From Scilla litardierei (lineage: Eukaryota; Streptophyta; Magnoliopsida; Asparagales; Asparagaceae): a DNA stretch of 64,000 bases. Each line of letters starts with the position of its first letter. The stretch's first letter is position 1. The stretch covers positions 355,669,486 through 355,733,485 of the forward strand of contig CM061142.1 of assembly GCA_030789695.1 (NCBI GenBank), written 5' to 3'. The position numbers were made by a program, and so were the translations under genes. The notes under the pieces were generated by a model that was given only the letters and a program-made list of their open reading frames with translations, made no database searches and was not told the DNA's origin. Of this stretch, positions 6,529 through 42,727 are shown in pieces.

Positions 6529-9312
6529 TTAATGCGGGATGTTTGGTGCATATGAGATGCACCCGTCAAATTTTCCGGGGAGAACGCTTGGATTCGGAAG
6601 TTGCGGCGGCGTGTTCTCCCTCGGTGGTCTCCCGTCTTGAATAGTGTTGGGGGGAGGCTCCCCCAAGCTAGTGTTTGCTCCGGTCCTCGGCTTTACCGGT
6701 GACGCCGATTTCCGCATCGGCGGAGCTTTCTTCGGAGACTTCAATTTCGAGAGCTTGCAGAGCTCTCGAATCCTCGCGACATCAGCGTCGCCTTCATCAA
6801 TCTCAGCGGAGAAGTCGGGGTAATCATCTATCTTCTCATCTTGGCCTAAATCCGGGCCTTCCTCGAAATCTTCATCGAATAGAGCGCCAATGGAGTGGGG
6901 GGTAGCCTCTTCGATTACCTCGTCAAGGAGATCCATATAGTCTAGCTCCTCGTGGTAAGGCATGTGTTTCATAGCCTTGGGAATGTGAAGCTCCACCTCG
7001 ATGTTGCCGACGTTCAATGTTAGGGTACCTTCTCGCACGTCGACAATGACACCGGTGGTGGCGAGGAACGGGAGTCCAAGTATCAATGATGTATCTCCCT
7101 CCTCCTTAACGTCCATGATCACGAAGTCACATGGTAAGCATATTCCCCCGGGGACTTGTAGCGGGATGTCCTCGGTGATTCCTACCGGCCTTGTTATCCG
7201 CCAATCGGCCAATTGTATCCGCATGTCGGTAGGTTTCGACTTCGTCCCGGTGTTTAGCCTTAGGAACATGGAGAGAGACATGAGGCTTACACTAGCCCCT
7301 AAATCCACCAATGCCTTTTGAAGAGGGACGCCGCCCAAGGTGCAAGGAATTTGAAAACTCCCCGGGTCTTTGAATTTAGCCGGCTCCTTCTCTCTCTTGG
7401 TGAACCAAGAGCCCTCCTCGGCGAGCATTATCTTTTCCTTCCTCTTTCCCCCCGAAATCAAATCCTTTAAGAATTTAGCATATGTGGGGATTTCCACGAT
7501 GGCGTCGAGGAAAGGAATGTTGAGGCTAACTCCTCTCAGATACTCGAGAAATTTTGCTAGCCTTTTCTCCATTTTTGCTCTAGCAAGCCTCTGGGGGAAT
7601 GGGACCGGTGGCATGAAGCGCCTCTCTTCAAGCAATTTCTCCGCTCTAGATTTCTCCTTTTCTTGTGGCTCTTTCTCCCTCTCAACTTCAACTACCCGCT
7701 CTATTGGCTCTACATTCTCTTCCACGGCCTCCTCGGTAGGAATCATGGCAGGGGTGGTATCCGTCCCGCCTCTAGTAGTAACGGCAACCACGGCATTGAT
7801 GTGGCCGGTGTTGCCCCGTGGGTTTTGCTCGGGTTGCGCCGGTAATTGTTGAGTATTCCGATTGAGCAACGCCAATTGCTCCGATATTTGTGCCACAACG
7901 GTTGTAAGGGAGTCTTGGCCCGCCTTCAAGGAAGCATTGACCTTCTTTTGCTCGACCATAAACTCCTCCACTCTAGCTTCGAAGTCGGATCTTTGTTGAG
8001 CTTGTGGAGGGTTTTGATTTCTCCACCCTTGATTGTATCCGGGCGGCCTATAAGGTGGGACTTGTTGCTTCGGTTGGAAATTTTGTTGTGGAGGCCCCCT
8101 CGTCGGATAGTGTTGTTGTTGGGGTGGTGGTGGTGGTAGAGCTTGTTGAGGTGGTTGTTGCGGCGGGTTCAAAGCTCCTTCATTGTTGGCATAAGAGAAA
8201 CCGGGATGGTTTCTTGTGGCTGGATTGGCCCAATACCCTTGGTTCCCCGCGACATATTGTACTTGCTCCAAGGATCCTTCTCCTTGCTCTCCTCCCAAAT
8301 ACATGGCTTGAGATTGGTCTTGCCAATCACACATTTTGTTCGTTGGTGCAGAGGTGGAGGGGTTTCCTTGGGGCTCTGTGATAAACTTCTCCAATCTCTC
8401 CACTACCTTGTGGAGAGAATCGAACTTGCTTGTAAGCTTCGCTACGGCCTTCGCCTCATAGATACTAGTTGGCTTCAAGGAGGATGTAGAGTGTCCTCGC
8501 TCATCGCCCCATTGTTGATTGTTTGAGGCCATCTCCTCAATTAGGGCCGTAGCTTCTTCGGGAGTCTTTGATAAGATATCACCATTTGCCGCGGCATCAA
8601 TAATTTGTTTGGTCCCTGGTTGGAGACCATTGTAGAAGCTATGAACTAGCTCCCAATCTTCAATGCTATGGTGCGGGCATTGATGCTGCAGATCTTTAAA
8701 ACGCTCCCAAGCCTCATAGAGCGTCTCTTGGGGTCCTTGCTTGAAGGACATAAGAGCGCTCCGAATCTTTACCGTCTTGGAAGGCGGATAGAACTTGTCA
8801 ATGAATGCACTCACCAACTCGTCCCAAGTGGTAAAGACTCCCTCAGCTTGCGTCCTCAACCAATAAAGTGCCTTGTCCTTTAGTGTGAAGGGGAAGAGAC
8901 GCAGTCTGATGGCATCGATGGAGACCCCCGTCATCTGAAATGTGGCGCACTTCGACAAAAATAACTGGATGTGGTAGTGGGGATTTTCGTGGGCATTCCC
9001 ATGAAATGGATCTTGCTGCATCAAAACCACTAGCCCAGTCTTCAGCTCGAAATTCTTGTCAGCCGCCAACTCCGGCATGGAAATGGATGAGGTCGTAGAA
9101 GAGGTCTTAGGCCGAAGCCTATCGCGAATAGAAATAATCCTCGCCATTCTTGTCGCTAATTGTTTAGTAGTTTCCAGGTTGGTCACAAACCTCCCTTCCT
9201 GATCTTGTCTCCTCTCCGCTCTGATTCTCCGCGCGGTACGTTCGATCTCGGGATCAAATAATATAGCCTCAGGGTCCGCCGTAGATCTCGTGTACATGCA
9301 ATGAGAAAACAA
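6529..9312 (-). CDS. Athila Gag-protease polyprotein (no RT)
   Basis: An open 927-residue frame from ATG 9312. Residues of roughly 90-270 are an Athila gag domain (the block containing HIQLFLSKCATFQM and LYWLRTQ). A Pro/Gln-rich linker follows. The aspartic protease lies at about residues 645-765, with the DLGAS active-site form usual for Athila in place of DSGA. An acidic tail then ends the frame where RT would start. Two oddities: the CCHC zinc knuckle expected after gag is absent, with only one cysteine (KMCDW) at that point, and the whole RT-RNase H-integrase module is missing. Gag and protease are intact, so the protein could assemble or mature particles while needing RT and integrase from elsewhere. 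Confidence 0.88.
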   Translation of the reverse strand: MFSHCMYTRSTADPEAILFDPEIERTARRIRAERRQDQEGRFVTNLETTKQLATRMARIISIRDRLRPKTSSTTSSISMPELAADKNFELKTGLVVLMQQDPFHGNAHENPHYHIQLFLSKCATFQMTGVSIDAIRLRLFPFTLKDKALYWLRTQAEGVFTTWDELVSAFIDKFYPPSKTVKIRSALMSFKQGPQETLYEAWERFKDLQHQCPHHSIEDWELVHSFYNGLQPGTKQIIDAAANGDILSKTPEEATALIEEMASNNQQWGDERGHSTSSLKPTSIYEAKAVAKLTSKFDSLHKVVERLEKFITEPQGNPSTSAPTNKMCDWQDQSQAMYLGGEQGEGSLEQVQYVAGNQGYWANPATRNHPGFSYANNEGALNPPQQPPQQALPPPPPQQQHYPTRGPPQQNFQPKQQVPPYRPPGYNQGWRNQNPPQAQQRSDFEARVEEFMVEQKKVNASLKAGQDSLTTVVAQISEQLALLNRNTQQLPAQPEQNPRGNTGHINAVVAVTTRGGTDTTPAMIPTEEAVEENVEPIERVVEVEREKEPQEKEKSRAEKLLEERRFMPPVPFPQRLARAKMEKRLAKFLEYLRGVSLNIPFLDAIVEIPTYAKFLKDLISGGKRKEKIMLAEEGSWFTKREKEPAKFKDPGSFQIPCTLGGVPLQKALVDLGASVSLMSLSMFLRLNTGTKSKPTDMRIQLADWRITRPVGITEDIPLQVPGGICLPCDFVIMDVKEEGDTSLILGLPFLATTGVIVDVREGTLTLNVGNIEVELHIPKAMKHMPYHEELDYMDLLDEVIEEATPHSIGALFDEDFEEGPDLGQDEKIDDYPDFSAEIDEGDADVARIRELCKLSKLKSPKKAPPMRKSASPVKPRTGANTSLGEPPPNTIQDGRPPRENTPPQLPNPSVLPGKFDGCISYAPNIPH

Positions 9313-9423
9313 AGTTTCGAAGAAATGATTAGCACAGTGGAAGGGTTAGGTAAAAAAAAGAAAATAATGAAATAAAAACGAAAAGAAAGAAATAGCTAGG
9401 GTGGTAAGATCAAACGCAATCGC

Positions 9424-9448: not shown

Positions 9449-11273
9449 TGATCGCTCCGGAATGTAACCCGAAGAACGGTTGTAGTTTTACCGCAAGCGC
9501 ACGGTATAGCGGCGAGCGGGTTATCGAACACAGGGAGGACGAATGACCGTGCTTGCTCCAATCAACCTGGCTATTAAGAACAGAAAAAGAGAGAAATTTT
9601 CCTTTGGCGATCCTGTCACAATCGTCAGACAAAGTACGAAGATATCAAATCAAATAAAGAACGTCTAGGGAATGGGGAATCCTCGCTACTCACCGTATCT
9701 CGTCAATGTGGTTCATTGGTATCAAAATTGCTAGAATAAAATTTTGGATGAACTAGTTGCAACTGAATGTAATACCTAGCTCACGCTCTCGCGCTGTTGC
9801 CGGTCTATAGCTATCCTAGGTTCTGGTCCAATCTCTTGCAAACCCTAGCCTATGGAAGCTAGCATTAGGATCAACATCATCGTTCAATCGCGCCCCGCGC
9901 CCACTCTCGTGCAAACTCGGGCCACGACCTAGGTTGGGATAGTTCCTACCCATCCAATCTCTTACAAACGGGTATCGGCACGGAATTGCAACCGGAAACC
10001 CTAGTATCGGTCCAATCTCTTGCAAACCGATACTACGGAAATTCGATTCCAACCCAATTCGGATTTCTAGGGTTTCCTATCGAATTGGGATCCAATCTCT
10101 TGCAAATCCCAATCGATATGAATACCTAGCCATCCGTAGTAAATCGATCCCAATCTAACCCTAATAGCAATTCTAGCAAAACTTCTACCAATTCATCACA
10201 AATCTGAAATTGGGCTCGTAGGGTTCATCCCCACGCCCCAAGACGTGGAGACTACTCACAATTCATAACACAAACACAAAAATAATCAATGAAATTAACA
10301 AGAGAATTCATCACAATATTGAGATAAGCAATAAAAATAGTATTTTTAGAGAAGAGAGACACAAACCAATGGAGTTCTTCAAATAATCCAACAAAAATCA
10401 ACTTTTGTCTCCTCTCCAATCACAAGAATAAAGCTATATAGTTAATCTAAAAAGCTGCAAAAATCTAAGAGAAAAAGCTCTCTAACCTAGGGTAAAAACA
10501 GGGGTTAAATACCCCTCAAAATCGTCCAAAAAAACTGTGACCAAAATGCCCCTGCGCAGCCTGAAATCCGCAATTTTCGCTACAGGCAGCGCGTCGCACT
10601 CAGCCGAGTGACAACAGTCGCTCGGCAGAGTGAGAAACCCTGTAAATTTCTAGTAAGTCTGGGTCTTCGGGGGTCTTCACTTCAGGAGTCGCTCGGCCGA
10701 GTGAGTTGTCGTCACTCGGCCGATGGCTTCTTAGTACTCGGTCGGTCGACATTTGCCACTCGGCCGAGTGGGTCTTCTGAAGCTCAGGCAGACGAAAAAC
10801 AGTAAGTTGGCGATTTTTGAATGCGTCGTCTGGGTGCCACTCGGGCGGACGGGATCTCGTCACTCGGCCGATGTGGCTTCTGTCGCTCGGCCGAGTGCAC
10901 GCATGAAGCGTATCCGATCTGGTCGGCCGAGCTGTGTCTCGCTGGCCAGCCGAGTGACTCCTTCACTCGGCCGAGTGGGACACCAAAAATGCCCAAACAG
11001 CTTGTTTTGGCCTCCTCGTCGCTCCTGTGACATTCTTTCTTCTTCCGCTCCTCTCCAATCAGCAAAATACCCCTCGGGGAGGTCATCGGTAACACTCTGG
11101 AGTAGGCGTATCTCGAGATCACTCCAAATCGCTCCAAATCACCTGAAATTCGACAAAAACAAGAAATCGTGAAAAGCATCGTAATATCGTCGATATATCA
11201 TGAAAAACATGATTTGAGCGATCTAAATGGCATGCAAACATGCGGGAAAAAAGTGTAAAATAAGGAGTGATCA
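9449..11273 (-). mobile_element. Athila 5' LTR
   Basis: An 1825-bp LTR. In element sense it begins TGATCACTCC at 11273 and ends GGAGCGATCA at 9449, giving short imperfect inverted termini. U3 contains the CTCGGCCGAG palindrome cluster (10590-10985), a TATA-like TATTTAAC is at 10504-10511, and the downstream part (9700-10250) contains several copies of 'ccaatctcttgcaaac'-type phrases. The right boundary is fixed by the break in gypsy-minus pol, the left boundary by the primer site. Confidence 0.85.
10590..10985. repeat. Palindrome cluster in Athila U3
   Basis: About nine intact or one-mismatch copies of CACTCGGCCGAGTG (for example near 10596, 10690, 10757, 10886 and 10963), upstream of the TATA-like box at 10504-10511. 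These are the same palindromes as at 5870-6205. Confidence 0.9.
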
Positions 11274-13170
11274 ACAATCGTCGACTGAATCTGCATATTC
11301 ATCAACGAAGAAGCCTCCCCAGGAAGAACAATCTCCACACCAGACTCGCAAAAATCCTGCTGCAATCTCCACTGCGAGGTCAAAATCATCACTGCTGGAA
11401 GCCTACTCAGTGCATCAGGAACCACATTCACCTTGCCAGGGTGATACCGCAAATCAATCTCATAATCCGACATGAGCTCCAACCATCGACGCTGTCGCAT
11501 GTTGAGCTCCTTCTGAGTAAAAATATACTTCAAGCTTTTATGATCGGTTAAGATCTTCACTTTCTCACTCAGCAGGAAGTGCCTCCAAATCTTAAGAGCA
11601 AACACAACAGCAGCCAACTCCAAATCATGCGTCGGGTAATTCTTCTCATGAACCTTTAGCTGACGAGATGCATAAGCCACTACATGTCCATGCTGATGCA
11701 ACACACAACCGAGACCCTTGCCAGAAGCATCGCAAAAGATCTCAAATCCACCGCTGCGATCAGGCACAACAAGAATATGGGCAGTTGTCAATCTCTCCCT
11801 CAGAACACCAAAGGCATTCTCACAATCAACCGACCAAACAAAAGGTACACCCTTCCGCGTCAATCTGGTCATCGGCTCGGCAATACGGGAAAAGTCTTTA
11901 ATGAAGCGCCGATAGTAACCAGCAAGCCCAAGGAAACTCCGAATCTCAGACGCTGACTGCGGAACAGGTCACTCTCTGATGGCCCTGATCTTCTCGGGAT
12001 CCACTGAAATACCATCTACTGTCACCACATGCCCGAGAAAAGCAACTCTGTCCAGCCAAAACTCGCACTTCAAAAACTTAACATACAACCGATGCTTCCT
12101 TAAAATCTCCAACACCGTCCTCAAGTGCGATGCATGCTCCTCCTCCGACTTAGAATAGATCAGAATGTCATCAATAAAGATAACGACAAACTTATCCAAA
12201 AAGTCGTAGAAAATCAGGTTCATCAGATTCATGAAAACTGTGGGTGCATTGGTTACACCGAAAGGCATAACCACAAACTCATAGTGTCCATACTTCGTCC
12301 TGAACGTTGTCTTCGGAACATCATCCTTCTTCACCTTCAGCTGATGATAACCACTCCTCAGATCCAACTTCGAAAACACCCTCGAACCTCCAAGCTGATC
12401 AAAAATATCATCGATGCGAGGCAACGTGTATGTATTCTTGATGGTCACCGCATTCAACTCCCGATAGACCACGCACATGCGACGTGAACCATCCTTCTTC
12501 TTCACCAGCAGCACCGGTGCTCCCCACGGAGACACACTAGGATTGATATAACTCTTCTGCAAAAGCTCATCCAGCTGCTTCCGTAATTCCTCCAACTCAG
12601 CGGGTGCCATACGATAAAGCGCCTTCGAAATCAGCTGCGCTCCCGGAACAAGATCAATAGAAAATTCTAAAGCTCGATCAGGTGGCAACCCAGACATCTC
12701 CTCGGGGAAGACGTCATCAAAGTCCCGCACAACCGCTGGCCTCTCCAGCTTCATCTGCATAGCCACAAACTCCACTGGCCTGGCCCAAAATCTGACCGGA
12801 CCGAGCGAACTGCTACCTCGACTGAACTCAAATACTGGATGTTCGGGAATCTCAAACATGACCTTCTTCCTCCGACAGTCGATCGTAGCATAGAAGCTCA
12901 CAAGCCAGTCCATCCCAAGAACTGCATCGTAGTTGATGATGTCGTGGACAATGAAATCAGCGTAAAGCTCATGTCCACAAACCACCAACGGGCAAGAATT
13001 GCAACCACAATGCACCGAGACCACGCCATTCCCGATGACGATATTCCAACTCTTGGAAAGAGGGGACGTCGACAAGGAATGCTTCTCCACGAAGCTCCGA
13101 GAAATAATGCACATCGATGCACCTGAGTCAAAGAGGACTCGTGCAGGAAATGTGCACACCAAAACCATAC
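11274..13170 (-). pseudogene. gypsy-minus Pol: protease-RT-RNase H, truncated
   Basis: The frame after the intron carries an aspartic protease (LFDSGAS, about 13135), reverse transcriptase with FIDDILIYS (about 12165-12190), and RNase H starting at about 11800. Three defects are visible: a TGA at about 11969-11971 at a position that is tryptophan in gypsy-plus, which splits the frame into 13192-11969 and 11872-11198; MCVVY where gypsy-plus has MCVDY in RT; and loss of everything after 11274 because of the Athila insertion. Residues read beyond 11274 (to 11198) are Athila LTR. The spliced product would continue directly from gag. Confidence 0.88.
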
Positions 13171-13283
13171 CTAACAAGCAATTAACAATCAAACCCTAGT
13201 CTAGCAAATAATCATGTTCAAGCAAACAACATAATCTAACAATCTAAACTAGCTAGGAAAGTAACAGCTAGATTGAGGATTAC
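13171..13283 (-). other. GT-AG intron between gag and protease (gypsy-minus)
   Basis: 113 bases bounded on the minus strand by GCAG/GTAATCC (13283) and GCTTGTTAG/GT (13171). It is AT-rich and contains a stop in the gag frame (13249). The intron interrupts a glycine codon after its first base (phase 1); gag codon register ends at 13284 and the pol register restarts consistently at 13170. Position and phase are the same as in gypsy-plus (17968-18077). Confidence 0.75.
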
Positions 13284-14415
13284 CTGCGATAACCTCATCC
13301 ACAGCATCGCTCTCCACAGCGGTCATCAGAAAAGCCTGCCTCCTCGGCGGAAAAGCCTGCTGAAAAGCCTGCCTCTGTGGAACAAGAGCTGCTCCACATC
13401 CAGCAGGAACAGACGCTCTCTGTTGCAACGGTTGTGCTGCAACAGGTGCCCTCCGTAGCTGATTCACATGCCGACAATCCTTCGCGACATGAGAAGCATC
13501 ACCACAAACCAAACACTGGCCCAGAAACTTCCTACACTGATCCTTGATGTAGCCAGGCTTGCCGCAGAAATGGCAAGTCTTCTGAATAGGCCCTCCTGGC
13601 CTCTTGAACTGCACCAGATGATTAGGCTTGAAACCAGGCCTAACCACCGCCCTGGCCTGCTCCACAGGCCTCTTTCCAACACCCGAAACATGTCCTCTCC
13701 TCTGACTCAGGTTCAGCTCCTGCCTCCTTGCAGCGACCAGAACCTTCTGATAAGAGTCCAGATCAGAGGAAGACACAAAACTCTGAAGCTCCAAAGCAAG
13801 TCCCTGCTGGAACCTCTGAGCCCTCTCATCAGCATCCTGCACCATCTTCGGTGCGAACCGACTCAGCCTAGTGAACTCTTGGTGGTACAGGTCCACCGTC
13901 ACGCTCCCTTGCTTCAGATCGATAAAGCGCTGCAGCATCTCCTTCCTAGCAGCCTTCGAAAAGAACTCCTCATCAAACCTGGACTTAAAGGTAGTCCAAG
14001 CTATCGGCTCTACCAGCATCTTCTCTTCAGCATCCCACCAGTTCCGAGCATTATCCTTGAGTTGCCTCTTCGCCAAATCAACCCATCCAGCCGGGGTGAT
14101 CATGGCCATCTTCAAATTATCCTCAATGTTCCGAATCCACTCATCGGCAGCCAGAGGACCCTCAGACCCATCAAAATATGCAGGACCCAGCTCCCGAAAT
14201 TGCTTCGCTCCCGGCTCGGAGCGAGGGGCATCCTGGATTGCCCGACCAGCTCGAACAACCGGAGCATTCTGGACTTGCAAGAGCATGCCCTGCTGCACCT
14301 GCATCATCTGAAGCATCATCCGCATCATCTCTCCATTGGTGGGTTCCCGCTCAGGCTCCTCGTCATGAGGGGGCGCACCACTACCTCCACCACAGGTGAA
14401 TCGCCTTCCTGCCAT
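13284..14415 (-). CDS. gypsy-minus Gag
   Basis: 377 codons from ATG 14415 to the intron donor; without splicing the frame closes at 13249 after about 11 extra residues. The N-terminus is Gly-rich and then Met/Gln-rich; the retrotransposon gag core is at about residues 95-200 (contains GPLAADEWI and DLKQGSVTV); two zinc knuckles follow, CHFCGKPGYIKDQC (about residues 280-293) and CLVCGDASHVAKDC (about 299-312). The double CCHC pattern matches gypsy-plus. The frame is intact. The ATG immediately follows an acceptor-like TCATTAG (14416-14422), so a leader intron is possible. Confidence 0.9.
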
Positions 14416-14557
14416 CTAATGACACAGAAAAAGAAACAATTAGACTCATAGATTATGACTCGGATGTCGAACTTAGTTTATTGGACATTCTAATATTATT
14501 ATCGTCATTCCGATAATCGCAGTTACAGAAGGACCTGCATGGGCCACCAACAAAACC
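14416..14557 (-). promoter_or_regulatory. gypsy-minus leader with primer-site region
   Basis: 142 bases between LTR and gag start. The first 27 bases on the minus strand contain GGTGGCCCATGCAGGTCC at the same distance from the LTR as in LARD-1 and LARD-2. The following 60 bases (TATCGGAA...GATAATAAT...GAATGTCCA...) are also nearly the same in LARD-2 (53400-53490). The region probably holds the primer site and packaging signal. The usual tRNA-Met site is absent and I cannot assign the primer. Confidence 0.6.
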
Positions 14558-16984
14558 TGTCATGCCCCGCTTCCCTAAAATGGAGGCGAGACGTGAAAAG
14601 GTCCGCACGAGAGTGGAGCTGTGAAGCCCCAAACCTGATAAGCGTCAATAAAACATAAGCAGGTCCCTGTAACCAAAAACAGAACAACAATAATAACACA
14701 AGGAGAGACAGAAATGAAATCTCAAATCTCAGAATTTGTCCAACATGAAAATTAAGTTCAACATCCAGAAAAACCACCAGGCTAAAAGAAAAGAGTCTAA
14801 AGGCCCAGAACAAGGCCAACAAAAGGGGACGACATAACAAAGTATAGGTGATGCGCACCGACAACTAAACAGCAGTCTAAAACAAAAGGGGGAAGCTCAA
14901 CGAAGACACTAGGACTGATCCCCAGTGTCCACGTACTCCTCGCCAAACACAGGCTCAAGCTCGACGTTCGCAAACACCTCGTCCTCTACAATGAACTCAG
15001 GCTCAGGATCTAACATGTGTCACCCAAAAGAGTAAAGGGGCACATGTCAGCAAGTCTAAAAGACTTGGGCAAGGAAACCGAAAGTAAAGCAAACTAACAA
15101 CCTAGCGGTTATAGTATGCATGACATGGCAGTTATGGTATGAGTGCACAAGTAAGACATGGTGAAACAATAAGTACAAGAGAACAATTTATCAGGGCATG
15201 TCAAGAGTAGCCAAGCTACTAACAATCTCAATCATTTCACTAGTCACGTTTCACGTTGTTTGTAGATGTTTATGCCTTACAGCTGAACGGTTTGACATTC
15301 ACACTTATTGGCCGCTTAACACTACCCCAGAACCCAGAGTTTACGCCTTACAACTGCAGTTGCTGATCGGGCAGACTCCCAGTTGAATGGCCGCTTAACT
15401 CTTACCCCAAAAACCCACATGTAAACGAGCCAGTGTCCCTGTACACGAGCTCAGTAAATGAGCAAGGGTTGCCCCGCACAAGAGCTCGTTTCCTGGATCA
15501 CAACCCAGGAGCGTATTTCATTTGGCATAGGGGTGCACCTAGCCTCAATCAGTTCACAAGGTGTAGCGGAGCTACGAAATCACGGGAACACTTAAAGAAT
15601 GCAATGACATGACAATTAATTTGCGTACCGTTAATGGAAATTAAACATGACATGGTAGTTGTGCAACATGATGAATGTCGGATCTAGCTTCGTTGTCAAG
15701 CTAGTTCCTGAAATTGCGCCTAGGCGAGTATCATTTCTTCACCTAGTCTCTTTTACGTCTACAACAAGAAAATGGCCTAAGACATGGCCCAAAACCCTAA
15801 GTGGCAAGTTTCACTTGCCTAGCACCGAGGATGACGATCAACGAGGCCGTCACACAAATGCTAACTGCGGCGAAGAGATCGCTGCCATGGCAAAACAACA
15901 TTCATTTCATTAGGGTTTCACAAAAACACAAATGGGTTATGAGAACTTTATGAGATCGATTTATTACCTTATCGGAGGCGGAAGAACGATGCCGAGAAAG
16001 CACGGCAACAGCAGAAACGATCCGGGGAACCTAGGGTTCAGATCTGGAACAGATGGGGAAAATCTGGAGAAATGGGGTTTTGGGGATTTTGGGGGTTTTC
16101 CGGCGACCTAGAGGTGGTGGCCGGCCAAAATGGCGAGGGGGAGAGGCTCTTGATGAAGGAGGAAAGCTAGGGTTAGATGGAGGATGATTTGGGGAAGAAG
16201 GAGGCTCAGGAGAAATGAATGAAGAAAGAAAAACGTTTGGGGGGGTTTAAATAGGCACAGCCGGCGGCTGCCCAAAAATTAGGGTTTCTGGGGTCATTAG
16301 TCGGTCAAAGAAGAGTGGCTGACCGACTAGTTTAACAACTAGTCGGTCGGTCGATTAACTATGACCGACTAACACCAAACAGCGAAAGTAGGGAAAAATC
16401 TGGGTAATGAATTAGTCGGTCTGTGAAGGCCCGTCGACCGACTAGTTTGCAACCTAGTTGGTCGTTGAGTGTTCATGGACCGACTAACGATAAACAGTAA
16501 CTTAGGTGAAATCTACTGACAGAAACTAGTCGGTCTGAGAGCAAGTTCTGACCGACTAGTTGCGCATCTAGTCGGTCGGTGGTTGTTCTTAGACCGACTA
16601 AAAGTAAACAGTAACTCCTGAATAATTTACAAAGCCCATTAGTCAGTCCATGAAGGTTTGCCGACCAACTAAATCGTCATCTAGTCGGTCGGTTCCCCTT
16701 CTTACACCGGCTAACGTGCATAGAAAGTTCCGAAATGGAGCGCGTAGCTCCGGGATCGATTCCTAAGACTCCTAGGCTTGATCTAACATTAAGATATGAC
16801 CGATATGAAGCCCGTCACGAATGACTTACTCCAAAATCGACGATTCTAATGAAGAAGCTAGAAAATCACGACGAAACGATCGAAAATGAAAGCTACGGAG
16901 ACGAAAACCACACATAAGGAGAAAATCCACCAAAACATATAATATAATATAATAAATCCAGATACATGAAAACCAGTCGTTACA
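14558..16984 (-). mobile_element. gypsy-minus 5' LTR
   Basis: A 2427-bp LTR, in element sense TGTAACGACTGG... (16984) to ...GGGGCATGACA (14558). U3 has a cluster of AGTCGGTC/GACCGACT inverted motifs (16300-16710), TATTTAAAC at 16245-16253 and a leader-like stretch with splice-rich plant composition (15960-16240). Both termini and several internal blocks match the LARD-2 LTRs. Confidence 0.85.
16300..16710. repeat. AGTCGGTC / GACCGACT inverted-motif cluster in U3
   Basis: About five repeats of a module in which CTAGTCGGTCGGTC is followed within 20-30 bases by GACCGACTA, each followed by an 'aaacagtaact'-like spacer. The same modules occur in both LARD-2 LTRs (49015-49325, 55462-55770). Confidence 0.88.
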
Positions 16985-17967
16985 ACCACCACCATCTCCG
17001 CCTGCCTCACGAGCTTCTCCAGGAGTGAAGCAGTTCAACGAGCTCCAGCCGAGGACATTTTCGGGGAAGGAGGGACCCCTAGCTGCTGACGAGTGGATCC
17101 AGAGCACGGAGGAGAAGTTAGTTGCTGCGAAGATTCCTGACGATACCCGAGTGGAGATAGCGAAGATGCAGCTGATGGAGAATGCGAGGAACTGGTGGCG
17201 CATCGAGGAGAGGCATCTTGAGAAGCCAATGGGGTGGAAGATCTTCAGATCGATGTTCAAGGACAAATATTTCACCAAGTCTGCTAGGAGGGAGCTGCTG
17301 AGCAAGTTTATAGATCTGAAGCAGGGGGATATGACTGTCGAGGAGTATGAAGCTGAGTTCGAGATGCTGAGCTGTTTTGCCCCGCATATGGTGAGGAAGG
17401 AGGAGAAGCGAGCTGATCGCTTTCGTCAGGGACTGTGTCCGAAGATTCAGGCTTCTATGTCTTCGGTGAGTTTCACAACTATGAGGGAGGTGCTGGATGC
17501 TGCGAAGAATCATGAGCTTATTTTGCTCCTACCTGACCCTCCAGCTGATAAGGGGAAGCGTTCCATGGAGCAGTACCGGCCACCTGCTAGGCCGGCGATG
17601 AGGCCAGTTCAGACGGTACCATTCAAGAGGCCTGGAGCACCAGTTCAGATTCAGGGCAAGGGCACATGCCACTTCTGCGGAAAGCCTGGACATGTTCAGG
17701 CCACCTGCAGGAAGAAGATGGGGCTATGCTTAGTTTGTGGAGATGCCTCGCATGCTGCGAGAGATTGTCCAAGAGCTCGTCATGCTGTAGTTGGAGTGCC
17801 AACCCCGTTGCAGATGAGAGCGCCTGCTCCAGTTCAGAGAGGACCTGCTGCTCGTGGACCACCTTTGGCGCCACAGAGGCAGATGTTTCAGAGAGCAGCA
17901 CAGCCCCAGAGGCCGGCGTACACCATGACTGCTGTGGAGACTGAGGAGCTGGATGGAGTTATAGCAG
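16985..17967 (+). pseudogene. gypsy-plus Gag, 5' truncated by insertion
   Basis: The frame is open from the junction at 16985; the ATG at 17025 is internal and not the native start, because homology to gypsy-minus Gag extends upstream. The gag core contains GPLAADEWI and DLKQGDMTV; two zinc knuckles are at about 17667-17710 (CHFCGKPGHVQATC) and 17727-17770 (CLVCGDASHAARDC). Without splicing the frame would stop at 17978. Apart from the gypsy-minus insertion I see no break. Confidence 0.9.
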
Positions 17968-18077
17968 GTAACTCTTAATCCTAGTCTTTCATTTCATAAT
18001 TAGATCTTATTATTTGTGTTGTTTGTTGACTTGTTTGTTAGAGTAGATTGGTTTGACCATATTTGTTTATATCTTAG
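17968..18077 (+). other. GT-AG intron between gag and protease (gypsy-plus)
   Basis: 110 bases from GTAACT (17968) to ATCTTAG (18077), T-rich as plant introns are, with stops in the gag frame. It splits a glycine codon after base 1; the gag register (codon beginning 17967) and the pol register (codon beginning 18080) agree after removal. The length is not a multiple of three, so retention forces termination after Gag. Confidence 0.78.
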
Positions 18078-20476
18078 GCACCATTCTAGTGTCCTCTCAC
18101 CCAGCCTTGGCTTTGTTCGACTCCGGTGCATCTATGTGCATCATATCCCGGAGGTTTGAAACAAAGCACTCCATTCCCACCCATACACTCTCTAAGTGTT
18201 GGGACATCACCACAGGGAACAGAGTGGTGACAGTGAATTTGGGGTGTCGATCGATTTCTTTGGTGGTCAATGGACACGAGCTCTTTGCAGATTTCATTGT
18301 CCACGATCTGCCACACTTCGATGTCGTTCTTGGCATCGATTGGTTGGGAGATTTCCACGCCTCGATCGACTGTCACAGCAAGAGGGTGGTGTTCCAGATT
18401 CCAGGCCATCCGGAGTTCGAGTTCCGCAGCAGAGATGAGTCGCTTGGGCCCATCAGATACCGGGCCATGCCGGAGGTGCCGATTGTTACAGCCATGCAGA
18501 TGGAGATGGAGATCGAACGACCATCAGTCGTCAGAGACTTCGACGACGTCTTCCCGGAGGATATCTCGGGTCTGCCACCCGACAGAGCTCTAGAATTTGG
18601 CATTGATCTTATGCCGGGAGTGCAGCCGATATCGAAGGCGCCGTACCGTATGGCTCCCGTTGAGCTCGAGGAGCTGCAGAAGCAGCTAGATGAGTTGCTG
18701 CAGAAGGGTTTCATCCACCCTAGTGTGTCACCATGGGGTGCACCAGTTTTACTTGTGAAGAAGAAGGATGGGTCCCGCAAGATGTGTGTGGACTATCAAG
18801 GATTGAATGCTGTCACCGTGAAGAATAAGTATCCGCTGCCGTGCATCGACGATATCTTTGATCAGCTTGGAGGTTCGAGAGTCTTCTCGAAGTTGGACTT
18901 GAGGAGCGGGTACCATCAGTTGAAGGTGAAGAAGGATGATGTTCCGAAGACGGCTTTCCGAACGAAGTACGGACATTATGAGTTCGTGGTCATGCCGTTT
19001 GGCGTGACCAATGCTCCAGCTGTGTTCATGAATTCGATGAACTTAATATTCTACGACTTTTTGGATAAGTTTGTCGTTATATTTATTGATGACATCCTTA
19101 TTTACTCAAAGACGGAGGAGGAGCACAGCTGTCATCTGAGGACAGTACTGGAGACGCTGAGGCGACACAAGCTTTACACCAAGTATAGCAAGTGCAAGTT
19201 CTGGCTGGACAGAGTCACGTTCCTCAGACACGTGGTGTCCGGTAATGGCATATCTATGGATCCGGAGAAGGTCAGAGCAGTCAGAGATTGGCCGACTCCG
19301 CAGTCAGCGTCAGACATCATGAGCTTTCTTGGCCTAGCAGGATATTATCGGCAGTTCATTAAGGATTTCTTGAAGATTGCAGAGCCGATGACGAAGCTGA
19401 CGAGGAAGGACGTGGAGTTTCTTTGGTCAGATGCTTGTGAGGAGGCCTTCAGTATCTTGAAGGCGAGATTGACCATGGCACCGGTGTTGGCAGTACCGGA
19501 TCGAAGCAGAGGCTTCGAAGTTTATTGTGATGCATCAGGGAAGGGCCTAGGATGCGTCTTGCATCAGCATGGCCACGTGGTCGCGTACGCTTCTCGTCAG
19601 TTGAGGACTCATGAGAAGAATTACCCGACTCATGATCTAGAGTTGGCAGCAGTGATTTTTGCACTGAAGATTTGGAGGAACTTCTTGCTAGGTGAGAGTG
19701 TGAAGATTTTCACCGATCACAAGAGCTTGAAGTACATCTTTACGCAGAAGGAGCTCAACATGCGACAGAGGCAATGGTTAGAGCTCATGGCTGACTACGA
19801 GATTGATTTGCAGTATCATCCGGGGAAGGTGAACGTAGTGCCGGATGCCTTGAGTAGACTTCCTACTTCGATGATGCATACTGCCGACTGGAGGATTCAG
19901 CAGGAGCTGAGAGAGATGGATTTGGAGGTTTTCCTACCTGGTGTAGTTCATTCATTCATGAATCTGCAGATTCAGTCCACGATTGTGGATCAAATCAAGG
20001 CAGCACAGGCAGGAGATCCAAAACTGCAGAGGATCAGGAGGCAGGTTGAAGCTGGACTACGGACGGAGTTCGTGATTCATGAGGACGGTTCGCTGCGGTA
20101 CGGCAGCAGACTCTGTGTACCTGCAGGTGATGTTCGTGAGGAGCTATTGAGCGAGGCTCATAGCTCGACATATTCTATACATCCTGGAGGCACCAAGATG
20201 TATAAGGACCTCCGTCTGAATTATTGGTGGATTGGCATGAAGAGGAGTGTGGCACGGAGCGTTGCCAAGTATTTGATATGCCAACAGGTGAAGGCTGAGC
20301 ACCATCGTACTGCTGGATTGCTGCAACCGCTTCCTATTCCAGAGTGGAAGTGGCAACATATTACGATGGACTTCGTGACTGGTTTACCTCGGACCCCGAG
20401 GCAGAACGACGCAGTTTGGGTGATCGTGGATCGGTTGACCAAGTCTGCGCACTTTATCCCATTCCGAGTGGGCCAG
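18078..20476 (+). pseudogene. gypsy-plus Pol: protease-RT-RNase H-integrase N-terminal half
   Basis: An open frame with protease (LFDSGAS, about 18115), reverse transcriptase ([13 protein letters not shown], then FIDDILIYS at about 19080-19110), RNase H (about 19500-19860, ending in the conserved PDALSR motif) and the start of integrase (HHCC region at about 20155-20300, then TMDFVTGL and [10 protein letters not shown]). In the zinc region the first cysteine of the CxxC pair is tyrosine (KYLICQQ), a likely inactivating change. LARD-1 cuts the gene after 20476. In an unsplit copy translation would run on from Gag after intron removal. Confidence 0.92.
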
Positions 20477-21344
20477 TGTCACGCCCCGCTTCCAAAAACG
20501 ACGGAGGCGAAGCGTGACTAAGGCCCGCTCGGGCCGGAGCTAAGAAGCTCGGACCCAATAAGCGCCTGTATGGGTACCATTTAAAAGATTTTCAGGTTCT
20601 TGCATTTATAAAGTTCGAACAACAGAAAGTACAGAAAAAAAAATTGCATTCATTAAATAGAGATATAATATCCAACAAGTACAAAGTCTAAAAAGGAGCC
20701 TAAGCGTGGCAACAACTGTCTAAAAGTAAACTAAAGGTAGTAACCTCTGAAAGTGACGACTAAGAAGACCTCAAGGTCAGGTCCTCGTCGGGCGCGTACT
20801 CTGGGTCGACGTCCTCGGCTCCTCGTACTCCAGTGAGTCTATCTCGTCCACGAACTCTGGCTGAGCACCTGACGTACAACACCCAAGAAAAGGAACTGTA
20901 CGTCAGGTAAAGTCTACAAGAAGGGTTAGACTTTACTGCAAGTGCACCGAACTTTAAACAACGGTTTACTGGTTGATTAACATGCTGAGGTTCTTTTACA
21001 CAACAGTTTACAGGTTGATTAGCATGCTGAGGTTCTTTTACACAACAGTTTACTGGTTGATTAGCATGTTGTGGTTATAACAGGGTAACACGACAGGAAG
21101 TAACGTAGCAGGAAAGTAAAACGGGACAAGTAGTAGTCGTAGCGTGTGCTACCAACTACGGGACTATCCTAAAGGTGTCAGGACAAGACGGAACTAGACA
21201 AGACAAGACGGGACACGACACGACTGACAGGACTAGTAAAACACGAAGGGTTCACGCCTTACGGTTCGAGGGGGATCAGACCCTCTCACCGTGCGCACGC
21301 TCAACCCTACCCCAAACCCCAGAACTCAGGACAGGAAGCACGGA

Positions 21345-21790
21345 GATCACTTTCGCAAGGAAAGCACCTGAAACGCCCGTAGGCTTTTTCGTAACACAGA
21401 GATCACTTCCGCAAGGGAAGCACCTGAAACGCCCGTAGGCTTTTTCGTAACACAGAGATCACTTCCGCAAGGGAAGCACCTGAAACGCCCGTAGGCTTTT
21501 TCGTAACACAGAGATCACTTCCGCAAGGGAAGCACCTGAAACGCCCGTAGGCTTTTTCGTAACACAGAGATCACTTCCGCAAGGGAAGCACCTGAAACGC
21601 CCGTAGGCTTTTTTGTAACACATAGATCACTTCCGCAAGGGAAGTACCTGAAACACCTGTAGGCTTTTTCGTAACACATAGATCACTTCCGCAAGGGAAG
21701 CACCTGAAACGCCCGTAGGCTTTTTTGTAACACAGAGATCACTTCCGCAAGGGAAGCACCTGAAACGCCCGTAGGCTTTTTGTGTAACTG
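21345..21790. repeat. 56-bp tandem repeat, 8 copies
   Basis: The unit starts gatcacttccgcaaggg and ends cgtaacacaga. Copies begin at 21345, 21401, 21457 and so on every 56 bases; the first and last are slightly diverged. The same array sits at the same place in the other LTR (27700-28137). Confidence 0.95.
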
Positions 21791-23528
21791 GGACAAGACA
21801 CGACAAGTGTTAGGATTTGTTATTCTAGGGTGTCCACACGCACGAACACACAAGATAGCCCTACGGTGTCAAGAGTTGTTGTTTGTCGAGCTTAGACTTC
21901 GTCGTCAAGTCTAAGTCGTCAGGGGCGTCCCGGACGCTATCATTTCACGTCCGGTTCTATACATTCACAGTCTAACAGTTCTAGCAATCTAAGACCAAAG
22001 CACGGTCAAAAACGCAAGTGGTTACACTTGCCTGTGGTGGCGAGGATGTCGTCCGTCCGGGCGTCTCGTCCAGTCGTCACGTCCACGGTAGTCCGTCTGA
22101 AACAGGTCATGGCGATGGCGTCAGGTCACGTTTTTCAATAACCCTAGTTAGGTTCATTTCTAGGTTGTCGGGACTACCCTAATTGTCAAAGTCACAATTT
22201 TGATGTTCAGTCCTATTCGACGATTCTATCCTATGTGCACAGTTCAAAAGTCCAGTCGTCGAATCTACTGTTTCACAACGTTTTAAAGGCGCAGAAAAAA
22301 TAAATTTAGTTACAGTTGTCCGATTTTAGTTAGGGTTCAGTTTGCTACGGTGTGGGTTTCGCTACGAGTTTAGAGGGACCAACCTGGTGTGAGGAACGTG
22401 CATTTAATCTGGCGTCGAGTCTGATTACGGTGGCGGTGCTCGTGTCCCCGACTGCAGGTAGCGCAGTGGAGGTCGTCTCAGGATCGCCTCAGGATTGTGA
22501 CGGCTGCGGGTAGCGCAACGAAACGTCTCAGGCAACGGTAACGGCAACGGATCACGATGCCGGAAGATCATGAGTCCTGCGGCGTCAAAGGCGTCTCGAC
22601 TACGGGTAGCGTAGTGAGACTCGTCCGGGCGGCAAGCACGGTCAGTTCGACGGTAAGAACAGCGAGCTACGGAGCGTAACGACGACGATAACCCGTTGGA
22701 ACGCCAGTCCAAGGGCCGATCGGCCTAGCAGTTGTTGCGGGGTGTCTCGTGCAACGGTTTACGGCGTCAGAAAACAGGCGACAGTGGCAACGGCGGGGAG
22801 CGCTGCGTGCGGCTGAAGGCGCGACCGCGCACGGCAAGAGGGGTCGTGAAGCGAGGCGGCGAGATTTGGCCGCGAACCGTGCGGAGGGTCACGGCAGTCG
22901 GATCGTGGCGGGGAGATCCGCGAGGGCGGCGAGAGTTGATGTCGCCGGAGGGAGGTCCGCAGCGACGGGGAGATCGGATTGGGGTTTGCGGCGGTCGGAA
23001 GTGGACCACGATGATCTGATCGCAGGGGAGGCGCTGCACGAGGTCAGCGGCGGCGGCACCGTGTGCGGCGAAGATGAGGGCGAAGGCGAGGGGATCACGG
23101 TGGTGTCAGGGGTCGCAGGCGGGCATCGGCGTCGCAGGTGGTGCGAGGGGAACTCGGAGACGTCAGAGCGACGTCGTGCGGAGGTGGCGAGCTGTCACGG
23201 CGGTGGGAAACCGCGAGGGCGACGAGAGGAAATCCCGGGGTGGAGAGAGAGAGCGGATCGCCGGAGGGTGCGGCGGCGCCGTGGATCGCAGCTCAGGCGA
23301 GCGCTGTGGTCACGGGGCGCTGGCGGCGGTGTGCGGGGAAGACGAGGCGGCGGATCGGAGTTCGGGTCACGGCGGGCTGCTGTGGCGGCGTGCGGTCGGA
23401 GAAGCGAGGGTGAGGCGACGATCGCCGGAGGGTGCGGGCTGAGGGGAGGCCGCGAGGGCGGCGGATCGCCGTGAGGGAGAGAGAGAGAGGGACGGGGTGA
23501 TCGAATTGGGGGAAAAATAGGCCGGCGG

Positions 23529-23575
23529 CTGAGATTTTAGGGTTAGGGTAAAGTTAGGGTTAGGGTTAGGGATTT
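23529..23575 (-). promoter_or_regulatory. Telomere-like (telo-box) motifs upstream of TATA
   Basis: The minus strand carries runs of CCCTAA just upstream of the TATA-like box at 23511-23520. The duplicate is at about 29888-29934 in the other LTR. The gypsy-plus LTR has related AAACCCTAG and CCCTAACCCT motifs at 32120-32150 next to its TATA. In plants such telo-boxes bind TRB-type factors; function here is inference. Confidence 0.55.
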
Positions 23576-24159
23576 AATATTATATAATAAAAGGGGTTTG
23601 CTAAATAGACATGTGATATGGGTAAAATAGGAGAAGGGTATAAGGATGGAGTGTGCACAAAAGGGGAAATTCTAGGGGAGGTTAGAGAAACGCTTTAGGG
23701 AAGATTTTAAAATGATTTTAAAAGAGATTTAGCCAGATTTGGCTAACAATTTCGAAATTTGAAACTGACCAGGGCAAATCAACGGTCCAGATTTCTCCGA
23801 GCGATATCTTCTAATCCGGGCGTCAGAAAAATAATCTGAAAATACCGGGGTGATCGTGGAGACGAGACGCACAGACCTACGGAGCCCGATCATGCGTAAC
23901 ACCTACCAAAAATTTACATAAAATTGGGAATGGCGTTTTGAGTCAAATGACTAAAACACCCCTATCGTTCAAGGTCGTTTTGCGAGCAAACGAGCCTTGA
24001 AAGACGTTCCCAAAAATTACTATAAAATTCAACACCCCCAAACGATCGCATCGGCATATCGCATCGCAAATGCCGGAGCTCAGAAAAGTCAAATAAAATA
24101 CGTGCACGATAAAGCACGTGCACGCAGAAAATACGAACGGTCGGAAAGCGGCCGTCACA

Positions 24160-26831
24160 TTCTACCCACCTTAGAAATGATTCCGTCCTCGGAATCACTC
24201 ATACTAAGACTATTTATAAAATCTATAAATACTTAAGCTTACAACTCCCATCTCTCACGCCAGGATCTCCAATCTTATAACTTCAATATCGTCCCTCAAA
24301 TATTCCTTCTTTACACAGGACAATGCTACGACTAAACTCACCTCCTACTACTTAGCTATAAGATCATCCCTACAGTTCAACTTCCCAAGTCCAAGTTCTC
24401 ATAAAAGGGATAACAATCATCATCTCATACCATACCACTCCACTAAACATCATTGCTCAAAAACAATCTTTTAAACTCTCGATCTCTTCCCAATATTAAT
24501 CAATCTTCAAAAAAAAGATTCTAGTCAACCACCAATCCAAGACAAAAACTTTGTCTATCTTATAACACCTTTCATAAATCAATGATCGCCGTGTCTTTAA
24601 TGCATTCCTTATCGTATCTTCCCATAAATTTATCAGCCAAGTAATTTAACTATCAGAATCACATCTCATCCTACCCACTATAATTAATCCCAACCAATAT
24701 TAAGTCTGACTACCTAAACATCCATTTATCTCAACGCGTCGTGTTACTCCCAATGTCTTCTCACGTCAACTCAACAATCAAGTCTCAATGCTAATAAAAT
24801 CTCTACTCAATCTTATGATCACTCTAACTCCTACCATACTTTGTAGCCATCCTTATCTACCATTCGTCTAAGCCTCAAATATGATAAGTTATCATCTCCT
24901 CGCACGTATAATTTGATCTGACCAGAATTTCCCATTGAGTCCGCCACACTTCGGTTTTATAAATAAGTCTTGGACAGCCCATTTTTTTTCCATCCGAAAG
25001 AAATCAATTCCAATACCCTATTGTTCCAAAATTGGTTAATCATTGCTATAACAAATCTTATCTCACCCTGAGCCTACCCGCATTCAAAATCCTATAACAA
25101 TAATAGCTAGTCCTAATAATATAACAACAATAAACATAACATTCCTAAGGGAGAAGGAAGAGAAGAGAAAGGAAAACTTAAGGCCAACGACACATTTTAA
25201 AACATTTGGAAAAACGTGTGGAGTTGTGGTATTGGATGAGGGAGGATAGGTGGGTTGTGATCTCGTGGGCTAGTTTTAAAACTTTAAAGATTTTATTTGA
25301 AAGGATACAAAAAGTTTTGAAACATACATAAGCAGCCAAAAATAATCTAAGCTACAATACGGAAGACTAGGTCTAAGGAATTTGCCTGCTATGACGTTAT
25401 CCACAAAAATTTGAATACCATCATTCAGACAACTCCATACGTATGTCATGGACCACACTGAGTATGCATTCAAGACACAGAAGGCAAATATCAGAATCCT
25501 AAGGGTGACACTCTCATACAGGTCTACACTCTCTACCTATTCTCATGCATCGCAACAACATCACCTACCAAGGCCTACTCCTAGCTAGGGATGACATAGG
25601 CAATTACAGGCGCTGATGTCTACATACAAGAGGGAGACCGAAACCAGAACGACACGAAACAAGATCGAAAGAACGAAGTCATGTAAGGCGAGGGTAAGAA
25701 GATAGTCGGATGGACGGGACAGAAATATTGTAAAAAGATTTAACGATCAAAGAAGGATTTGGTGCAAAATATGGTATCACATACCTTTAAAAATACATAT
25801 ATATATTCATATACTTAAAAGTGAGTAGATGTAGCAAATCAAAGTTTTGGAAAGAAAAAAAAAGTAAGACGGTGGAAGAATGGGTAGGGTGAGAAACGGT
25901 TGATTTGCAAATGAAAATAAGTTTACACAAAGATTTTTGAAATGTGGTCACTAATATAATAATAATAATAAAATAATTGGAGTTCCCTCTAGTTTAGAAA
26001 AATATTCTTTTTTAAAATAATAATAATAATAATAATAATAATATCTACGGTAGTGGTTATAAATAGATCTGTTAGTTTAGAAAATTAATATATATATTGG
26101 ATTATAGAATTGATAACAAGGTTTAAAACTGAAACACGAAAGATGCCGATTTGAAAATATGTACAAGATAGTAAAATATTTTTACGACCAGGGATGTTTC
26201 AAGATCAGTGAAAGAATTTAACTCAAAAGAAAAACAAGAATTTTGAAATGTATAATATAGGGGTTTTCAAAGAAGTCAAACTAGAGCGAAAAAACTTAAT
26301 GGGAATTTCGAAAATACTTTTAGAGGTAGCAGACTTGGCAATGGAAGAGACTCGAATGATCAACGATAATCGTCAGGAAACGATCACGTGAATCGGGAGA
26401 CAGGAAAAAAAATGATCGCTTGATGGATACACTTAGGATTTGATTTACGAAACTACGATGGGGTTCTTCGGTCGATCACACGAAAGGGCAATGATTGGAG
26501 GGGCGCTAGAAGTCAGGGGGAAAGTTCCCAAGAGAGTCAAGGTTACGCTTTGCTGGGCCCGAAGTCAATGGAGCCGGGCGAGCGACTAAACTAAAAGAAG
26601 GGCTCTAGGAAATTTAACACGGTCAGAGTCAAGTGGGCTACTAAGGTATTCTAGGATGAGGACGACTAATTCCTAACCAAGGCTCAGACTATCAAATGGG
26701 GACGTCTACCTAGGTCTTCCTACTATCTGGGACTGGGAAACTAATTCAGACATGTACGTGGATATTAAATGAATGCGGTACTCTAATTGTTCCGAACTTT
26801 TGCAAGACCTGCATGGGCCACCACTAAAACC
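24160..26831 (-). other. LARD-1 internal region, non-coding
   Basis: I find no frame resembling a retrotransposon protein. Next to 24160 the minus strand has AAGGTGGGTAGAA preceded by a 'ccgaggacggaatcatttc' block, which also precedes the gypsy-plus polypurine tract (31533-31568). Next to 26831 is the GGTGGCCCATGCAGGTC leader motif. About 25940-26820 aligns by eye with LARD-2 at about 52600-53510. A short TAA microsatellite is at 26015-26045. Confidence 0.8.
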
Positions 26832-30514: not shown

Positions 30515-31527
30515 GCCAGTCTACGGAAGCTTTGGCGAGGAAATATCTGGAGGTAAATTTCTTCTTTACTTCTCTTTTAATTTCCTCTTGAGTTGGTTGT
30601 AACGTAGACCGTGTACGTGCAGGAGATTGTACGCTTACATGGAGTCCCGTGAGCATTGTGTCTGACCGAGACACGAGGTTCACATCTCAGTTCTGGAGAA
30701 GTCTGCAGGAACATTTGGGTACGAGTCTGAGTTTCAGCACGGCGTACCATCCGCAAACTGATGGCCAGTCCGAGAGGACTATCCAGATTCTGGCGGATAT
30801 GCTGCGAGCTTGTATGCTCGATTTGAAGGGATCGTGGGAAGACCATCTTCACTTGGTGGAGTTCTCATATAACAACAGCTACCAGGCGAGCATTGGCATG
30901 GCACCGTTTGCTGCCTTATATGGAAGGAAATGTCGATCGCCGCTGAGCTGGGATGACATCGGAGATCGGGAACTGTTGGGTCCAGAGATGATAGTGGAAG
31001 CTGTGGATGTCGTGAGAGACATCAGGGAGAAGCTCAGAGTTGCACAGGATCGCTTCAAGCATTGGGCAGATGCCAAGAGGAGACCTTTGGAGTTTCAGCC
31101 TGGAGATCACGTCTTCCTGAAGATTTCTCCGAACCGCGGAGTTATTCGTTTTGGGAAGAAGGGAAAGCTGAGTCCGAGGTATATTGGGCCATTTGATGTG
31201 CTAGAGCCTGTGGGAGCAGTGGCCTACCGCCTTGCTCTGCCACCATCTTTGGAGGGTGTTCACGATGTATTCCACGTATCTCAGCTACGTCGGTACGTCA
31301 GTGATCCGTCGCACACGGTTGATTTCTCAGAGATTACGGTTCGCCCGGACCTGACTTATGACCAGCAGCCTGTGCAGATCTTGGACCATCGACAGAAGCA
31401 GTTGAGGAATAAGATAGTCGACCTGGTGAGAGTGATGTGGCGTCACGGATCACCTGGAGAGTCCACCTGGGAGCGTGAGGATGATATGAGAGAGCGCTTC
31501 CCGCATCTTTTTCCCAACGATGCTTGA
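30515..31527 (+). pseudogene. gypsy-plus Pol: integrase C-terminal half and chromodomain
   Basis: It resumes in frame right after LARD-1 (11 codons, 30520-30552), is interrupted by a second intron (30553-30622), and continues from 30623. One base is missing at about 30648, which shifts the frame; the rest (30649-31527) is open. It contains the integrase catalytic core ([18 protein letters not shown] with the catalytic acidic residue following), the GPF/Y-like region ([10 protein letters not shown]) and a C-terminal chromodomain-type segment (about 31375-31510, ESTWERE). The chromodomain assigns the element to the chromoviruses. The frameshift plus the LARD-1 insertion make this copy non-functional. 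Confidence 0.88.
30553..30622 (+). other. Candidate second intron, inside gypsy-plus integrase
   Basis: 70 bases from GTAAATTTC to TACGTGCAG between two glutamate codons (phase 0). It contains in-frame stops, is T-rich, and its removal makes the integrase continuous. The homologous stretch of gypsy-minus is outside the window, so conservation cannot be tested here. Confidence 0.65.
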
Positions 31528-36540: not shown

Positions 36541-36599
36541 GACAAGAAGATGGTCAACCTTATATTTATTATGAACCTAAACAAAATAAATACACATGT

Positions 36600-40418: not shown

Positions 40419-40423
40419 ACCAT

Positions 40424-42685: not shown

Positions 42686-42687
42686 AG

Positions 42688-42702: not shown

Positions 42703-42727
42703 TTTTAGGATCTAGCCTAGATTGACC

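Follow-up and report, generated by a model that had tools for sequence, protein, structure and literature searches.

Plant long terminal repeat (LTR) retrotransposons generally lack introns, and a 2025 review lists Ogre and the copia element EVADE as notable exceptions (PMC12786077). Ogre, a Ty3/gypsy element of the Tat lineage, has an experimentally demonstrated, partly spliced intron whose removal joins the frames of its polyprotein (PMC6317226). In EVADE, of the Ty1/copia shGAG kind, splicing sets Gag against Pol (PMC8892269). The subject of this report is a related arrangement in 64,000 nucleotides of the Scilla litardierei genome (contig CM061142.1, positions 355,669,486 to 355,733,485; 'the window'). 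Two Ty3/gypsy-type elements on opposite strands, gypsy-plus and gypsy-minus, each carry an intron-like segment at the joint between Gag and protease. This segment, 110-114 bases long in the copies examined, is quite probably a spliceosomal intron. Its retention would end translation just after Gag, and its removal would join Gag to protease, reverse transcriptase (RT) and integrase in a single frame.

How LTR elements make Gag in excess of Pol is a long-standing question. Retroviruses use frameshifting or stop read-through at the Gag/protease border. An earlier note on this DNA had held that gypsy elements normally rely on one frame or on frameshifting, a statement that leaves out Ogre and its partly spliced intron (PMC6317226). 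Like the Ogre intron, the window segment interrupts the polyprotein-coding part of a Ty3/gypsy element from a plant, where splicing would connect a downstream frame (PMC6317226). However, the Ogre intron is located between Gag-Pro and RT, whereas the window segment precedes the protease. Ogre is also a non-chromovirus without a chromodomain. Only gypsy-plus displays the chromovirus order of Gag, protease, RT, RNase H and integrase followed by a chromodomain, and that last match is marginal (25.2 bits against a cut-off of 25.1) and sits behind a nested insertion.

EVADE differs in the direction of the switch, because its spliced, early-terminated RNA makes Gag and its unspliced RNA makes Gag-Pol (PMC8892269). 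The predicted direction in the window elements is the reverse: their domain order is that of gypsy elements and, by their frames, splicing would open Gag into Pol. The LTR element BARE reportedly gives rise to several RNA isoforms. Several isoforms per element are likewise described for sunflower LTR elements, but the accessible part of that study describes no intron at the Gag/protease joint, and Tekay is absent from its expressed set (PMC7730604). The literature searched, which leaves most subscription papers outside, yielded no report of an intron at a chromovirus Gag/protease joint. What is new is thus the chromovirus-like lineage, the place before the protease and the existence of intronless sister copies; the kind of intron is already known from Ogre.

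An intron-like segment between Gag and protease

The earlier note had described GT...AG segments at the same codon and in the same phase in both elements, and its coordinates, ends and assignment to phase 1 are all correct (Table 1). The residues V-I-A-G precede the segment, which splits the codon for Gly, and are followed by T-I-L-V in gypsy-plus and M-V-L-V in gypsy-minus. Both elements match the Gag family PF03732 upstream of the segment and the protease family PF08284 immediately downstream. The frame of gypsy-plus exon 1 runs from 16956 to the donor at 17968 as 337 codons plus one base, and exon 2 resumes at 18078 with the second base of a codon. In gypsy-minus, 377 codons plus one base separate 14415 from the donor at 13283, and 13170 is again a second codon base. 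Removal of the segment therefore keeps Gag and Pol in register in both elements, as had been claimed.

Other properties of the segment also fit a spliceosomal GT-AG intron. The two window introns contain 51% and 45% T, compared with 20-34% in the flanking exons, and 110-114 nucleotides is a typical size for a plant intron. The sequence GGTTTGAY is common to both introns near their 3' ends, and the match between them points to a possible branch point in each.

Retention would close the Gag frame soon after the donor, again in agreement with the earlier note. In gypsy-plus the stop is three codons past the split codon. Its position is the same in all 28 plus loci counted although its letters vary: the window copy has TAA, whereas the remaining 27 have TGA. 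The gypsy-minus stop is located 11 codons past the split codon in eight of nine loci and two codons later, at 13, in the ninth (L059).

Intron-bearing copies in the host genome

Related copies were collected from the 3.68-Gb host genome. The plus sample comprises 40 loci (39 distinct), and the minus sample comprises nine, of which eight were found by similarity and one, L059, comes from an evenly placed sample; each sample includes the window copy. All 40 plus loci and eight of the nine minus loci were chosen with queries that contain the intron, so these samples cannot tell how frequent the intron is. A check that did not depend on similarity covered 200 kb in 20 stretches of 10 kb, spaced evenly; these contained one joint of the plus and minus families, with the intron present.

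The donor GT is found in all 49 loci and the acceptor AG in 46: 37 of 40 plus loci (the others being an identical pair with CG and one locus with AA) and all nine minus loci. Intron lengths in the plus family are 110 (three loci), 111 (28) or 112 (nine), and in the minus family 113 (six) or 114 (three), which together cover all classes modulo three. Among 39 aligned plus rows, two one-base insertions in the intron are common to 33 and 13 rows, while each of the three indels in the exons is confined to one row. The segment thus shifts in length by single bases and holds no one reading frame to Pol. Stops occur in all three frames inside every one of the 49 introns, and the pol frame is always closed within the intron.

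These data bear on a reading that dispenses with splicing, in which Gag ends at its stop and ribosomes reach Pol by reinitiating, by using an internal entry site or by bypassing a spacer. At the DNA level, an intron cannot be told from a spacer that divides gag and pol into two frames. Bianca elements are built in this way, with two open reading frames (ORFs) and a spacer averaging 172 bp (PMC6317226), and the minus copy in the window has an early AUG in exon 2. However, in all 40 plus and seven of nine minus loci (47 of 49 in total), the pol frame has its first in-frame AUG 19 codons in, past the place of the protease motif DSGAS. Unspliced RNA from these loci thus offers no ordinary start for a whole protease. 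The single-base changes in spacer length, the stops in all frames, the preserved splice ends and the absence of the spacer, to the base, from six copies described below all argue in the same direction. Because of the AUG, stop and length data from 49 loci, frameshifting, reinitiation and bypass can largely be set aside, and a mechanism without splicing is very improbable.

The introns of the two families are homologous. Their alignment score is 94, while 1,000 dinucleotide shuffles give a mean of 59.8 (standard deviation 7.1) and a maximum of 82. Since the alignment beats every shuffle, the segment is, on this comparison, a single old feature rather than two accidents. It is older than the split of the plus and minus families, and loci of both carry it, which upholds the earlier note on this point. 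That note had also proposed comparing nonsynonymous (dN) and synonymous (dS) substitution in the exons. Between plus and minus, Gag has dN 0.43 and dS 1.5 (dN/dS 0.28), and protease-RT has dN 0.17 and dS 2.5, which is saturated (dN/dS 0.07). By these ratios, purifying selection has acted on both exons in each lineage with the segment in place.

Within the plus family (39 distinct loci), diversity at first, second and third codon bases is 0.045, 0.057 and 0.101 in exon 1 and 0.023, 0.022 and 0.047 in exon 2. The intron has a diversity of 0.045, about that of exon 2 third positions, although this low value is biased because the loci were picked with a query spanning the intron and adjacent exon. 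If the segment were an inactive insertion, or a product of decay that amplification has spread, the broken state of both window copies would be accounted for, one being split by a nested insertion and the other carrying the stop at 11969-11971. But two families at saturated synonymous distance have retained the segment with both exons under selection, and this explanation is scarcely credible.

Copies without the intron

If the segment is spliced, reverse transcription of spliced RNA might leave copies that lack it. The genome was searched for two exact exon words of the minus family separated by a gap of 4-20 bases. Six intronless copies (L070-L075) were found, each with exactly nine bases between the words though 17 gap lengths were permitted. 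The same words with a gap of 110-132 bases match 2,634 intron-containing copies, 1,357 on the + strand and 1,277 on the - strand, and reversed-pattern controls gave no match for either gap range. Both words are present in all nine intron-bearing minus loci. The search of related copies that the earlier note had proposed thus finds the intron at the joint in 49 sampled loci and its absence, within the minus family, from 6 of 2,640 exact word matches (0.23%).

On either side of the joint, the six stretches are colinear with the window minus element over about 350 bases, with 91.7-94.9% identity by piece and two gap positions in L071. The frame is open across the joint in all six. It reads DEVIAGVVLVC in L070, L071 and L073, and the other three have substituted residues. 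Within 700 bases around the joint, two copies have no stop and four have one or two. L074 and L075 are separated by 14.7 kb and show 2% divergence. The six differ from one another by 2.0-6.4%, and no aligned site separates all of them from the nine intron copies. On a neighbor-joining tree the intron label changes twice, and in 200 bootstraps it changes once in eight, twice in 141, three times in 49 and four times in two.

An ancestral intronless state for the six was considered and rejected, since they nest within the minus family and a homologous intron is present even in the plus family, which is more distant. By their placement they are losses within the minus family that go back to a single event or a few, and the plain cause would be reverse transcription of spliced RNA.

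Several observations weigh against splicing as the explanation. As noted above, nearly all sampled loci were selected with intron-bearing queries. Two of the nine minus loci (L061 and L064, one of which is the window copy) have an AUG at codon 2 of exon 2, before the DSG, and translation of unspliced RNA could start there. The variability of the plus intron falls below half of that at exon 1 third positions, contrary to what one would expect of a free-running spacer. Clustering of the six intronless copies is loose, with a mean distance of 0.048 among themselves and 0.071 to the nine intron copies, so there may have been only one or two loss events. All six are on the + strand of the assembly, where intron copies are divided about evenly between strands; this placement is unexplained and possibly due to chance.

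The remaining points favor a different origin of the six copies, namely a DNA deletion between repeats at the intron edges with no part played by spliced RNA. In the minus family AGGT is found at both edges, and a deletion between four-base direct repeats would yield an identical product. The plus intron edges have only AGG in common, and a two-word search of the plus family found no intronless copy (33 of the 40 sampled plus copies contain both words). The loose clustering noted above would also fit deletion. On the other hand, all six gaps fall exactly at splice edges that had been predicted before the search, among the 17 lengths that it permitted, and no aligned site distinguishes the six from the intron copies. 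Deletion is an improbable rival to reverse transcription of spliced RNA.

A predicted splice switch

In the proposed mechanism, the host spliceosome would remove the intron from some transcripts. The unspliced ones would yield Gag with a short tail and would also be packed as the genome, while spliced RNA would encode Gag-Pol. Spliced RNA would be reverse-transcribed only rarely, leaving few intronless copies. The strong excess of intron copies (2,634 versus six) implies that spliced RNA seldom yields a lasting new copy, and the mechanism that fits best is one in which genomic RNA mostly escapes splicing. The earlier note had proposed a splice-controlled ratio of this kind. The old intron-like segment and the predominant escape of genomic RNA bear out part of that proposal; a Gag product from the retained form and a regulated ratio of Gag to Gag-Pol are predictions. 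The making of Gag alone from retained RNA is the weakest step.

A true intron need not act as a switch. Splicing could be constitutive for the coding mRNA, with Gag cut from Gag-Pol. The retained RNA would then serve only as genome; it would stay in the nucleus or be degraded, and no Gag would be translated from it. The intronless copies are compatible with this arrangement, in that they suggest that splicing occurs and that genomes keep the intron, while Gag from the retained form is a prediction. In addition, unspliced RNA of Arabidopsis EVD is reported to be secluded in the nucleus (PMC8892269). In contrast, the in-frame stop that follows the split codon within three codons (28 of 28 plus loci) or 11-13 codons (nine of nine minus loci) would suit the end of Gag. 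The U-rich sequence makes so close a stop expected by chance, however, and the argument from its position is accordingly weak. Constitutive splicing, with no Gag from the retained RNA, is unlikely.

We lean toward the view that a splice switch at the Gag/protease border arose in a chromovirus lineage independently of Ogre. One intron would set whether Gag or Gag-Pol is made, and replication would separate spliced from unspliced RNA so efficiently that, in one family, intronless copies make up only about 1 in 440 of the matching ones. Such elements would be a high-copy natural system in which splicing likely sets Gag over Pol in a chromovirus-like element, and they would likely represent a second origin of such an intron beside that in Ogre. 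Each genomic copy records the splicing state of its parent RNA, so the sorting of spliced from unspliced RNA can be counted from genome sequence alone.

Relatives and origin of the intron

Three protein searches returned 127 proteins, 59 of which have a protease motif by regular expression; many of these are near-copies from melon and Tanacetum. In 46 of the 59, the joint motif V/I-V/I/A-T/S/A/Q/N-G occurs at most 22 residues before the protease motif in one unbroken frame. A near-variant was recognized by eye in 11 of the other 13, and the motif is absent from P0027 and P0055. Relatives from annotated genomes may be spliced models, which is less likely for proteins such as P0080, P0089 and P0097 that come from short contigs of metagenomes or archives. 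The unbroken motif in relatives indicates that the segment splits a conserved Gly codon at a joint that is mostly read through. Plant Ty3/gypsy relatives with a single frame, such as those from melon (P0099), Shorea (P0073) and Iris (P0063), share the domain order and the Gag/protease joint around this Gly but read through it without a break. One negative control from the host genome, a chromovirus-like element in a sampled stretch (L048) that we take to be Reina-like, also reads through the joint. The sampled stretches contain a third RT as well, L051.

In an RT tree of 34 rows, whose bootstrap had not settled, the plus and minus elements and L059 form one clade (support 100/98). Next to join are P0027 (97/50), P0082 (94/82) and P0055 (94/86). 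The earlier note had called both window elements Tekay, a name that is unconfirmed. Read as proteins alone, these three have no Gag in the same frame, and two are on contigs shorter than 3.3 kb. P0027, the nearest by RT, has an odd stretch before the protease and is not counted as a case. The common ancestor of the plus and minus families likely acquired the intron, within a group whose relatives mostly read through the joint. P0001, a metagenome protein of 435 residues with 49% identity to the minus Gag, ends nine residues past the same Gly. From the protein alone, this end point hints that a third lineage may have the same intron. Scans of viral contigs with two queries gave no match; scans of genome contigs with two queries gave none for one query and, for the other, a single locus that begins past the joint.

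Two proteins with bacterial labels turned up among the relatives. L069:111-3296, on a contig filed as Streptomyces clavifer, encodes a plant-type Ty3/gypsy Pol and is most likely plant contamination. P0102, filed as Labilibacter sediminis, resembles this case.

Architecture of the window

Neither window copy is whole. The pol region of gypsy-plus is split by a 10-kb nested element, and gypsy-minus pol continues in the same frame past an in-frame stop (Table 1).

Table 1. Coordinates of features in the window
Feature	Position	Strand	Remarks
gypsy-plus exon 1, Gag (PF03732)	16985..17967	+	5' end cut where homology to other copies stops
Putative intron, gypsy-plus	17968..18077	+	110 nt, phase 1, CAG/GTAACT ... 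ATCTTAG/GC
Retained-intron Gag stop, gypsy-plus	17976..17978	+	in frame, TAA in window copy
Possible branch point, gypsy-plus	18050..18057	+	GGTTTGAC; suggested by match between plus and minus introns
gypsy-plus exon 2, protease, RT, RNase H and start of integrase	18078..20476	+	interrupted by nested element
Likely 3' part of gypsy-plus pol	30592..31524	+	Tf2-1-type SH3 domain and chromodomain, behind nested element
Likely 5' LTR of gypsy-minus	14558..16984	-	suggested by related repeat pair 47067-49619/53514-56066
gypsy-minus exon 1, Gag	13284..14414	-	ATG at 14414
Putative intron, gypsy-minus	13171..13283	-	113 nt, phase 1, CAG/GTAATC ... CTTGTTAG/GT
Retained-intron Gag stop, gypsy-minus	13249..13251	-	in frame, TAG
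Possible branch point, gypsy-minus	13188..13195	-	GGTTTGAT; suggested by match between plus and minus introns
gypsy-minus exon 2, protease and RT	11972..13170	-	to in-frame stop 11969-11971
gypsy-minus pol past stop, RNase H	11201..11968	-	same frame
Direct-repeat pairs	40422-41576/45911-47066; 41572-42686/56067-57181; 47067-49619/53514-56066

The 5' LTR of gypsy-plus is not adjacent to it in the window. Seven further plus loci have long flanks; in six of them homology to the window ends at 16985, and in the seventh (L005) at 17604. Most likely, the minus element inserted into the Gag region of the plus element, so that its predicted 5' LTR, from 14558 to about 16984, borders directly on plus Gag at 16985. 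Upstream of Gag, five of the seven plus loci have a stretch that is 75.6-80.8% alike, over 103-142 aligned bases, to window positions 14508-14646, the predicted LTR/leader edge of the minus element. The earlier note had assigned the two elements to different LTR families; with the plus 5' LTR not alongside and this resemblance present, that assignment is unconfirmed.

The nested element at 20477-30514 has 3.7-kb direct repeats, likely LTRs, that are 97.8% identical and each contain 56-bp tandem repeats, with about 2.7 kb between them. Two ORFs tested within it match no Pfam domain. Upstream of Gag, five of the seven other gypsy-plus loci are 71.5-73.9% alike to its edge at 20477-20733, and it may be a non-autonomous relative.

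Further nested elements likely lie at 40422-57181, where stacked direct-repeat pairs, likely LTRs, are all more than 99% alike. Behind one of these repeats, at 42688, is an exact match to what we take to be a tRNA-Met-type primer-site word, followed by a copia Gag frame. No such word occurs in exact form beside gypsy-plus or gypsy-minus. Athila-type frames occupy 3201-9345 on the minus strand, with matches to ATHILA ORF-1, Gag and, weakly, protease. A tandem array of units of about 106 bp is located at 35473-36619.
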